Positions 468 through 2,409 of a DNA stretch of 15,158 nucleotides are shown here, piece after piece (positions within the stretch are counted from its first letter, which is position 1; each line of letters starts with the position of its first letter). The position numbers were made by a program, and so were the translations under genes. The notes below the pieces were generated by a model. That model was given only the letters and a program-made list of their open reading frames with translations, was not told where the DNA came from and did no database searches. Source of the DNA: Desulfobacterales bacterium (GTDB lineage: Bacteria; Desulfobacterota; Desulfobacteria; Desulfobacterales; C00003060); NCBI GenBank assembly GCA_030613145.1, contig JAUWMM010000008.1:1-15158 (forward strand), in the 5' to 3' direction.

Positions 468-2054
468 TCATGCTGTATCAGGTGTGGTACTATTTTGAGA
501 TGAAAGGCCGTTGTCCGAGTGGTGGGTCTCTGAAGTACGCAGCAGCAGCCACTGGAGCCGGTTGATGGCCTGGACATAAGCCTTAGCGCTGGCCTTGAGG
601 ATATCTGTGCTGGATCCCCGACCAAGAGCGCGAAAACCCTCGCGAGCCACCCGCACAGTAGCTATGCCCATGGCCTCCTTGGTCTCGGTCACAGCGTTGA
701 CCTGAAAGTCCTCAAGTTTATGGTAAGCGCCCACAATCTTGTCAACCGCCTTAAAAATTGCGTCGATAGGCCCGTCACCCTGAGCACTCGCCTCCAAAAG
801 AACTCCCTCCCGTCGCAGTTTTACCCTTGCCTCAGGAACTTCTCCGTTGCCCGTAGTCATTTTGTATGATTCAAGGCTGTATAGTTTGCTGTCATCTAAA
901 TAGGCAAAAATCACGTCCTGGACTATGACAGCCACGTCATCATCGTAGACTTGCTTTTTCTTGTCCGCAACAGAGAGAAACTGATTGTAAACAGCTTCAA
1001 ATTCTTGTTCCGGAAAATCATAGCCCATCTCTGAGATCTTCTGCCTGAGGGCGTGCCTGCCCGATCTTGCCGTCAGAACCATGGCATGTTCTGTGATACC
1101 CACATCTTCGGGGCGTATAGCTTCATACGTGGAACGATCTTTGAGGATGCCGTCTTGGTGAATACCGGATGAATGGGAAAAAGCATTGGCGCCAACAATG
1201 GCCTTATTGGCCTGAACCGGCATTCCCATCAACCGGCTGACCAATTTGCTGGTCCTCATAATCTCCGGGGTATTAACCGTAGTGAAGTATTTGAAATAGT
1301 CTTTCCGGGTCTTGATGGCCATGACGAGCTCCTCTAAGGAGGCATTCCCCGCCCTTTCCCCAAGGCCGTTCATCGTACACTCCACCTGTCTTGCTCCATT
1401 TTCTACGGCTGATAAGGTGTTGGCCGTAGCAAGACCCAGGTCGTTATGGCAATGCACACTGAGCACTATCTTGTCGATGTCTGACACCTTTTCCATAAGA
1501 TAAGCGATGAGCCGGCCAAACTGCTGGGGAACCGCATAGCCAACCGTGTCCGGGATATTCACGACTGTAGCACCAGCAGCAATAACCTGTTCTACTACCT
1601 TAACCAGATATTCCGGATCAGTCCTGGAAGCGTCCTCAGGCGAGTACTCTATCTCAGGACACAGAGATTTGGCATATTTTAATGCCTCAAGTCCTCGCTC
1701 TAATTGCTTTGTTCGATCCGTACCAAATTTTTTCTGGATATGAATATCTGATGACGGTAAAAAGACGTGAATACGGGGTCTTGCAGCCTTTCTTATGGCC
1801 CCCCATGCCGCTTCAATGTCCTTTGGAACGGCACGCGCAAGTGCCACAATGGCAGGACCTTTAATCTTTTCGGCAATCGTCTTCACAGCCTCAAAATCAC
1901 CCGGCGATGAGATAGGAAATCCGGCCTCAATGGCATCTACCTGTAAACGTTCAAGTTGTAAGGCGATTTCTAACTTTTCCCGTGGATTGAGGCATGCCCC
2001 TGGAATCTGTTCACCATCTCTCAACGTGGTGTCAAAAATGAAGATTTTTTCCAT
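468..2054 (-). CDS. leuA: 2-isopropylmalate synthase
   Basis: LeuA condenses acetyl-CoA with 2-oxoisovalerate, the first committed step of leucine synthesis in the cytoplasm. The chosen start gives 528 residues, close to the usual long-form LeuA. The N-terminal catalytic barrel shows DTTLRDGEQ at residues 8-16, EAGFPISSPGDFEAV, the metal-binding HCHND, and NGLGERAGN. The C-terminal third is the LeuA dimer/regulatory domain (GDGPIDA, then DILKASAKAYVQAINRL), the module that binds leucine in feedback inhibition. The paralogous citramalate synthase is the main alternative; the SPGDFEAV region favours LeuA. ATG at 2054 has the strong site GGGGAGGAATCA before it. An in-frame ATG at 2147 also has an excellent site (AAGGAGGTGAGGCAG) and would add 31 acidic, non-conserved-looking residues. 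A leucine leader/attenuator lies upstream and a terminator downstream, so leuA looks monocistronic. Confidence 0.95.
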   Translation of the reverse strand: MEKIFIFDTTLRDGEQIPGACLNPREKLEIALQLERLQVDAIEAGFPISSPGDFEAVKTIAEKIKGPAIVALARAVPKDIEAAWGAIRKAARPRIHVFLPSSDIHIQKKFGTDRTKQLERGLEALKYAKSLCPEIEYSPEDASRTDPEYLVKVVEQVIAAGATVVNIPDTVGYAVPQQFGRLIAYLMEKVSDIDKIVLSVHCHNDLGLATANTLSAVENGARQVECTMNGLGERAGNASLEELVMAIKTRKDYFKYFTTVNTPEIMRTSKLVSRLMGMPVQANKAIVGANAFSHSSGIHQDGILKDRSTYEAIRPEDVGITEHAMVLTARSGRHALRQKISEMGYDFPEQEFEAVYNQFLSVADKKKQVYDDDVAVIVQDVIFAYLDDSKLYSLESYKMTTGNGEVPEARVKLRREGVLLEASAQGDGPIDAIFKAVDKIVGAYHKLEDFQVNAVTETKEAMGIATVRVAREGFRALGRGSSTDILKASAKAYVQAINRLQWLLLRTSETHHSDNGLSSQNSTTPDTA

Positions 2055-2222: not shown

Positions 2223-2253
2223 AAAAAAAGCCGCAGGTTTTGCTGCCTGCGGC
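2223..2253 (-). terminator. Attenuator terminator hairpin upstream of leuA
   Basis: On the minus strand GCCGCAGG, loop CAGCAAAA, CCTGCGGC and seven T form a textbook intrinsic terminator with eight perfect pairs. It stands 36 bases after the leader-peptide stop and before both candidate leuA starts, so it can only act as a leuA attenuator or as a late ispB terminator. The alternative pairing of its 5' arm with the segment just after the leader stop favours the attenuator role. Confidence 0.85.
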
Positions 2254-2340
2254 CCATCATTATCTGAATTGTGTGTCGATTACCGCAGTCAGTCCACTCC
2301 TTGAACTAGCCCAAGAAGAAGCAAAAACTCTATTGGTAAT
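2246..2340 (-). promoter_or_regulatory. Leucine attenuator: leader segments 1-2-3
   Basis: On the minus strand, segment 1 ATTACC (2340-2335, across Leu codons 8-9) can pair with GGTAAT (2284-2279). Segment 2 CTGCGG (2288-2283, immediately after the leader TGA) can pair with CCGCAG (2252-2247), the 5' arm of the terminator. A ribosome stalled on the Leu run at codons 14-17 would leave segment 2 free to form the antiterminator. A ribosome reaching the stop codon would cover segment 2 and let the terminator form. The complementarities are seen in the sequence; the mechanism is inferred by analogy with the classic leu, his and trp attenuators. Confidence 0.75.
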
Positions 2341-2363
2341 AAACACATCACAGATCCTCTCAT
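2289..2363 (-). CDS. leuL: leuA leader peptide (attenuation peptide)
   Basis: A 24-residue reading frame begins MRGSVMCLLPIEF and continues FLLLLGL before a short tail and TGA. Seven of 24 codons are leucine (TTA TTA, then TTG CTT CTT CTT, then CTA), with four in a row. ATG at 2363 follows AAAGG six bases upstream. The stop lies directly against the antiterminator segment, and a terminator hairpin follows before leuA. Leucine starvation should stall ribosomes on the Leu run and allow leuA transcription. The symbol is given by analogy with enterobacterial leuL; there is no expectation of sequence homology. Leader peptides of this size are usually missed by annotation pipelines. Confidence 0.8.
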   Translation of the reverse strand: MRGSVMCLLPIEFLLLLGLVQGVD

Positions 2364-2379
2364 AAACAACCTTTATTGA

Positions 2380-2409
2380 TAGCCAATCACAACATTTTCC
2401 GTATGTCAA
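2380..2409 (-). promoter_or_regulatory. Candidate promoter of the leuL-leuA transcript
   Basis: A perfect -35 hexamer TTGACA is read on the minus strand at 2409-2404, between the ispB stop and the leader peptide. The -10 is unclear: TGGCTA at 18-bp spacing is poor, and the better-looking TATCAA (2381-2376) lies 22 bp away, which is too far. Only the general location is supported. Confidence 0.4.

Follow-up and report, generated by a model that had tools for sequence, protein, structure and literature searches.

The question raised by this locus is how leuA, which encodes 2-isopropylmalate synthase, is controlled in a genus of uncultured Desulfobacterales. The window, that is, the whole stretch of 15,158 nucleotides analysed, had been described in an initial annotation as carrying a leucine attenuator in front of leuA. 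Both genes that flank the leader are on the minus strand: a prenyl synthase gene, whose end is at position 2463, and leuA, which starts at 2054 (Table 1). The downstream gene is identified as leuA by its match to the NCBIfam model TIGR00973 over positions 510-2054, at 694.8 bits (cut-off 598.7). An alternative in-frame leuA start is present at ATG 2147 with a strong GGAGGTGAGG, yielding an acidic N-terminal extension of 31 residues, MGLGFNEDEGD.. (2147-2055, minus strand); in-frame sequences resembling this extension were seen by eye in G001, G007 and G021.

Table 1. Features of the leuA leader and the adjoining gene in the window.
Feature	Position	Strand	Remark
leuA, 2-isopropylmalate synthase, regulated gene	468..2054	-	TIGR00973
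-35-like TTGACA	2404..2409	-	putative promoter role
Shine-Dalgarno AGAGG	2356..2360	-	7 nt 5' of conserved start ATG 2348
Leader peptide frame	2289..2363	-	ATG 2363 gives 24 codons; TGA at 2291-2289
Sensor, four consecutive Leu codons TTG CTT CTT CTT	2313..2324	-	
Segment 1 (TGTGT..ATTACC), 5' arm of 1:2 stem	2335..2347	-	
3' arm of 1:2 stem (GGTAAT..ACACA)	2272..2284	-	shares last GG of segment 2
Segment 2, antiterminator 5' arm CTGACTGCGG	2283..2292	-	several relatives: CTGCCTGCGG
Segment 3, CCGCAGGCAG	2243..2252	-	partner of segment 2, or part of terminator 5' arm
Intrinsic terminator, predicted	2223..2255	-	stem 2255-2228 and seven T 2229-2223

The 24-codon frame described earlier, with seven leucine codons in all and four of them consecutive, was recovered on re-reading the minus strand. 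The ribosome site judged good in that description has two candidates, AGAGG and an AAAGG at 2374-2370 (minus strand) located 6 nt 5' of ATG 2363; the start that is mostly conserved in relatives is the in-frame ATG 2348, giving a frame of 19 codons and the peptide MCLLPIEFLLLLGLVQGVD. The hairpin with its seven T was likewise confirmed, and both of the pairings proposed for the leader are present and longer than first described. The pairing of CCGCAG with CTGCGG is part of a longer 2:3 stem, and ATTACC (2340-2335) pairing with GGTAAT (2284-2279) is extended by TGTGT (2347-2343) with ACACA (2276-2272). A consensus promoter scan called no promoter at the TTGACA of positions 2404..2409.

Frames with at least seven leucine codons including four in succession arose in 19 of 5000 dinucleotide-preserving shuffles of the intergenic region, and none of this kind was found elsewhere in the window. 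A perfect 8-bp stem followed by six T was obtained in 0 of 5000 shuffles of the same kind, as was the leucine frame followed in order by such a stem and T run (0/5000). The combination of leader, stems and terminator upstream of leuA is real and lies far beyond chance.

Conservation was assessed in 22 genomes of the genus, including the window genome (2.0 Mb, 65% complete); the family's other genera are absent from the data set. A leuA match was present in all 22. That of G001, a single-contig genome, covers residues 1-270 only of 515 (L075), which suggests a frameshift or truncation. Relatives devoid of the leucine run and the pairings would count against an attenuator; within the genus, 19 of the 22 genomes keep both, having an intact leader with a leucine-rich frame and the 1:2, 2:3 and 3:4 pairings. 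Each of these 19 leaders contains at least seven leucine codons, with a run of at least four in 17 and shorter runs in G016 and G018, and each is followed by a T-tailed hairpin at which termination is predicted. Typical leader peptides of the relatives are MRLLPLELLLLLGLLREEACLR (G014) and MRLLLLGLLLLLGLLQGGICLR (G001). The three remaining genomes comprise G008, where a palindromic insertion 3' of segment 2 interrupts the leader, G002, which retains a remnant without a start, and G004, where no leader was found in the 171 nt available up to the contig edge. The G008 insertion (L015) is TA-flanked, has a near-identical piece upstream of the promoter and looks MITE-like by eye. A model built from the 19 intact leaders (R1) finds the leuA leader in 21 of the 22 genomes, that of G008 in two pieces and that of G002 as a remnant, and at E 0.01 finds no genus site other than leuA leaders. 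Of the 21 genus regions having a terminator, 20 carry TTGACA before the leader. A second T-tailed hairpin after the attenuator, forming tandem terminators, was seen by eye in G006, G008, G010 and G013; it is CACAGG..CCTGTG in most of these.

In the window, CTGCGG (2288-2283) directly adjoins the stop codon of the leader frame, as the initial annotation stated, though this arrangement is peculiar to the window genome. Among the 18 other intact leaders, 16 have TAA or TAG immediately behind the CTGCGG-type hexamer, and the hexamer is therefore coding there. The exceptions, G006 and G010, have a 1-nt deletion after the leucine run that shifts the frame, with segment 2 largely kept apart from one mismatch.

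Pairing of the arms was then compared with slid controls. For the 1:2 stem 92.3% of 208 cells were paired against 28.8-52.9% in the controls, with double changes at four pairs; the window has U-A where 17 of 19 leaders have C-G. Own arms paired more strongly than exchanged arms (means of -16.9 and -14.4 kcal/mol; 0.0002 of 10000 permutations, kinship ignored). In this arm swap G010, G011 and G012 were without a better distinct partner in either direction, and for G009, G014, G016 and G019 the majority of exchanged 3' arms gave stronger pairing than their own. The 1:2 stem is supported by covariation, by statistics that ignore relatedness. For the 2:3 stem, which in the window comprises 9 pairs and one A.G mismatch and in several relatives at least 10 continuous pairs, 94.2% of 171 cells were paired against 20.5-55.6% in slid controls. 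A test for covariation in the 2:3 and 3:4 stems had been suggested: the 2:3 stem is kept but shows no covariation beyond shuffles across the intact genus leaders, and the 3:4 stem is nearly invariant in the genus; the covarying stem is 1:2. The window's own fold also contains an outer pairing, ATCTG/CAGAT, which was discarded as unconserved in relatives.

Alternative folds of the leader, the computation of which had been suggested at the outset, were obtained with an assumed downstream ribosome footprint of 14 nt. When RNA up to segment 3 was folded with a ribosome on the leucine codons, the 2:3 stem formed at -15.8 to -17.9 kcal/mol overall; with the ribosome at the stop codon the value was -3.0 kcal/mol and 2:3 was absent. 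With no ribosome in the fold, 1:2 formed. The 2:3 stem was confined to partial folds; in the full-length folds the terminator prevailed at all ribosome positions tested. The switch would therefore rest on 2:3 forming first, during transcription.

Comparison among the relatives makes it very probable that this leader controls leuA by ribosome-mediated transcription attenuation, with charged tRNA-Leu as the signal sensed; promoter, translation, termination and leucine response are all inferred. A promoter near 2409 would give rise to the leader RNA, on which a ribosome would translate the leucine-rich peptide. Under scarcity of leucine the ribosome would stall on the leucine run and cover segment 1, allowing 2:3 to pair before segment 4 is made; no terminator would form and leuA would be transcribed. 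With leucine plentiful, a ribosome at the stop codon would cover segment 2, the 3:4 stem would form and RNA polymerase would halt at the T run. If the leader were not translated, 1:2 would form and leave segment 3 free for segment 4.

Lying between two same-strand genes, about 207 nt past the upstream stop codon, the hairpin might alternatively be the ordinary terminator of the prenyl synthase gene, with the leucine frame in front of it by chance. This is most improbable given that leader and hairpin are kept together in 19 of the 22 genomes, whereas a short motif from the prenyl synthase tail is present in only 3 of the 22 leuA upstream regions; the leader therefore travels with leuA. The covariation of the 1:2 stem argues against it as well, as does the finding that the 20 genus sites of the terminator stem pattern (described below) all precede leuA or DAHP synthase genes, 19 of them with a leader. 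Action mainly at translation or through Rho, and not by intrinsic termination, is judged similarly improbable. Leucine-rich frames that work otherwise do precede leuA in the actinobacterial LEU element, according to the portion of PMC1262725 available, and in 3 of the 19 intact leaders the terminator is only 12-15 nt before the leuA start. All 19, however, possess a strong T-tailed hairpin, and in 16 it stands 39-302 nt before the leuA start and is therefore too far away to hide the start site.

Control by a T-box, or by another tRNA- or ligand-binding leader, has precedent in the deltaproteobacteria: the accessible text of PMC2494555 and PMC2700814 places T-boxes before leuA in Geobacter and Pelobacter, bearing out the remark of the initial annotation on this group. 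Its supposition of a deltaproteobacterial host agrees with the closest relatives by LeuA, which are Desulfobacterales or Deltaproteobacteria MAGs. Such control is nonetheless scarcely credible in this genus. The T-box, of which no consensus had been visible by eye, was found in 0 of 22 genus genomes with RF00230 at E 0.001 (the control matched in 5 of 14, above the cut-off in 2), and the window gave no match to any Rfam family at gathering score, T-box included. At E up to 10 the leader returned two weak matches only, MicC at 18.6 bits and mir-9460 at 14.1 bits, both far below gathering. A permissive Rfam scan yielded 11 matches with E up to 1, none at gathering; the strongest, CsrC in L037, was rejected at 35.5 bits against a gathering score of 61 and on the opposite strand.

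The window genome departs from its relatives in several respects. A TGC codon reads TGA, ending the peptide three codons early, and this stop is most simply regarded as derived because it is present in only one of the 19 leaders; it introduces the A.G mismatch into 2:3, and a ribosome terminating there would still cover segment 2. One leucine of the run is replaced by phenylalanine. The -10 position (2386-2381) reads TTGGCT, a poor match, compared with TTTATT in the sister genome G018, whose LeuA is 98% identical. These four features would suit an attenuator in decay, with leuA constitutive or driven from another promoter. We consider this unlikely: a compensatory pair change has occurred in the 1:2 stem, and both the terminator and the run of four leucine codons are intact, all of which points to continued selection. 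By comparison with its relatives, the attenuator was surely inherited in the window genome and is probably working there.

Close named relatives by LeuA are Desulfobacterales, Desulfobacteria and Deltaproteobacteria MAGs, including Desulfobacterales bacterium C00003060; the order named C00003060 is linked to SEEP-SRB1c in the available part of PMC11237511, and the window genome would presumably fall within it. By identity, the best LeuA matches outside the genus (about 54-57%) come mainly from MAGs of deltaproteobacteria and Omnitrophota. In a LeuA tree built quickly from 57 rows, the genus stood apart from eight of nine same-order rows. Forcing the genus and these eight together changed the log-likelihood by -108 units (AU p 0.0006, in a test chosen after the tree and leaving out G084, the ninth same-order row, which is placed elsewhere).

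Within the genus the leucine-attenuator reading is supported; among 64 regions upstream of leuA in other families of the order there was no clear counterpart and one ambiguous case. These regions derive from 67 non-genus genomes with a leuA match, G027, G059 and G077 being left out. Leucine-rich frames occur in five of the 64. That of G036 was dismissed as the tail of its RPML frame, and those of G022, G056 and G060 were dismissed in that no T-tailed hairpin stands behind the frame in the partial stretches folded. In the fifth (L070, G088), a strong T-tailed hairpin stands behind the frame MLLLQLVLSISAILSEIRQSG, at about -237 to -60 before leuA; this leader is ambiguous and possibly represents another leucine leader in a different family.

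A different leader frame with AAG..RPM is present in 21 of the 64 regions. At L230-L245 a frame of the form (N/H)AAG-x(n)-(L/P)RPML overlies a hairpin CGCCGCRGG..CCYGCGGCCCATGCT upstream of leuA in other families. The exact combination of AAG..RPML and hairpin was found in 16 of 116 order genomes, once in each, against 0 in the reversed control; all 16 lie just before leuA, and in 15 of these the preceding gene encodes a LeuA-like synthase (25-33% identity). The frame is probably translated, because all 16 matched lengths are multiples of three, and it is possibly an arrest peptide. The permissive Rfam scan, which covered 20 of the 21 loci carrying the looser AAG..RPM frame, yielded nothing at gathering there.

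Short frames with 3 to 8 leucine codons also precede leuA at eight loci examined in a deltaproteobacterial group (L169-L181), with 2:3 pairing of -18.0 to -27.2 kcal/mol. Here too a second T-tailed hairpin was noted by eye in several members of the group. It is possible that the leader was acquired with leuA from the group, and a clade of the genus, the L169-L181 rows and L167 gave an AU p of 0.495; against such an origin, the switch sequences differ and R1 scored only 20.6 bits on L169 (E 0.14).

When R1 was applied to 291 genomes of the order, 93 were matched, 19 within the genus and 74 outside it, the latter with 81 places. Forty of these places were read, namely the top 36 and 4 lower ones: 19 lie before DAHP synthase, 15 before an ADTH-synthase-like aldolase, 3 before trpE and 1 before a pheA-like gene, and 2 lie at a contig edge, the gene names relying on short signatures and on NCBIfam for three fragments. 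The leaders among those read contain many Phe, Tyr or Trp codons. As candidates for further leuA leaders the places were rejected, 38 of the 40 read preceding aromatic genes and none being seen before leuA.

Matches of R1 outside the genus were selected for similarity, and the reverse test, with a model (R2) derived from 17 aromatic attenuators that belong to other families, is therefore cleaner. R2 found 37 places in 19 of the 22 genus genomes, and 17 of these places are leuA leaders. Of the other 20, 14 were read: 12 precede DAHP synthase, and L274 and L262 are not of this kind. An aromatic run (e.g. FFYYYYYWYF) in a frame with a start was found in 11 of these 12, followed by VCP in eight. 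The genus accordingly has a second attenuator-like leader, with Phe, Tyr and Trp codons, before DAHP synthase (L251, L253, L257, L260, L261, L266, L268, L270, L271, L272, L273 and L275). The terminator pattern GCCGSRGGN{4,16}CCYSCGGCNTTTT has 20 sites in 16 of the 22 genus genomes. Fifteen of the sites are at leuA leaders, three being assigned by their place, and the other 5 precede DAHP synthase. Of the latter, three have an aromatic frame with a start; in G003 the aromatic frame is open but has no usual start; and in G005 no leader is seen, its locus (L281) keeping the terminator stem with other coding-like sequence upstream. The stricter pattern CTGCCTG..GCCGCRGGCAG was found in 4 of the 22 genomes, at leuA places in every case. 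The frame tails GGA GGG GTC TGC C of leuA leaders and GGA CAG GTC TGC C of DAHP synthase leaders, several of each, are in the same frame.

This evidence suggests that the leuA and DAHP synthase attenuators of the genus are one switch with different sensor codons. The shared core fits a common origin; convergence under the same pairing constraints is the alternative. A more tentative proposal, possible but short of probable, is that these attenuators are modular, with segments 2, 3 and 4 reused and the sensor codons interchangeable, and that a DAHP synthase-type switch moved before leuA, its Phe/Tyr run giving way to leucine. The aromatic-type switch being widespread in the order, and other families having other leuA leaders, belong to the same proposal. 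In the DAHP synthase leaders L253, L257, L277, L293 and L294, the tyrosine run read one base out of frame gives five to seven leucine codons. A shift in reading frame could convert a sensor for tyrosine into one for leucine, and were the modular proposal true, the out-of-frame leucine run would offer a cheap route to a sensor swap.

The mechanism itself is classic; what is new is the lineage, the differences in leader between lineages and the possible reuse of one switch. For this genus of uncultured Desulfobacterales a leucine attenuator is now well supported, and the literature searched contained no report of leucine attenuators in deltaproteobacteria, an earlier mention being possible. Leaders of leuA appear to differ among deltaproteobacterial lineages, with T-box, leucine attenuator and AAG..RPML frame each represented. 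Two attenuators of one genus seem to have a switch core in common, which makes the emergence of new attenuator specificities accessible to comparison.

Among known systems, the T-box of Geobacter and Pelobacter is likewise an RNA leader controlling leuA in deltaproteobacteria, so far as the available text of the two reports goes, but it binds tRNA directly and is unmatched in the genus. The actinobacterial LEU element shares a leucine-rich frame before leuA with the genus leader. It differs in its pseudoknot, in which leucine codons pair with the leuA Shine-Dalgarno box, and its authors thought classical attenuation unlikely, according to the part of PMC1262725 available. Leaders of the L169-L181 group (e.g. 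CSP1-8) similarly place short frames (RLGGLALLALxGGRPAA) and T-tailed hairpins before leuA, and are distinguished from the window leader by another switch sequence and by a leucine codon number varying between loci. The aromatic attenuators of the order and genus, before DAHP synthase, the ADTH-synthase-like aldolase, trpE and the pheA-like gene, resemble the leuA leader in that many share the core GGTCTGCC ... GCCG[CG][AG]GGCAG ... GCGGCTTTT; they carry Phe, Tyr or Trp codons rather than Leu and precede other genes. The enteric leu leader (leuL) combines a leucine run, the logic of 1:2, 2:3 and 3:4 pairing and a T-tailed terminator before leuA. The leader of the genus has the same three components in the same position, and differs from leuL in belonging to no Rfam family at gathering and in a segment 2 whose CTGCGG is coding in 16 of the 18 leaders other than that of the window.
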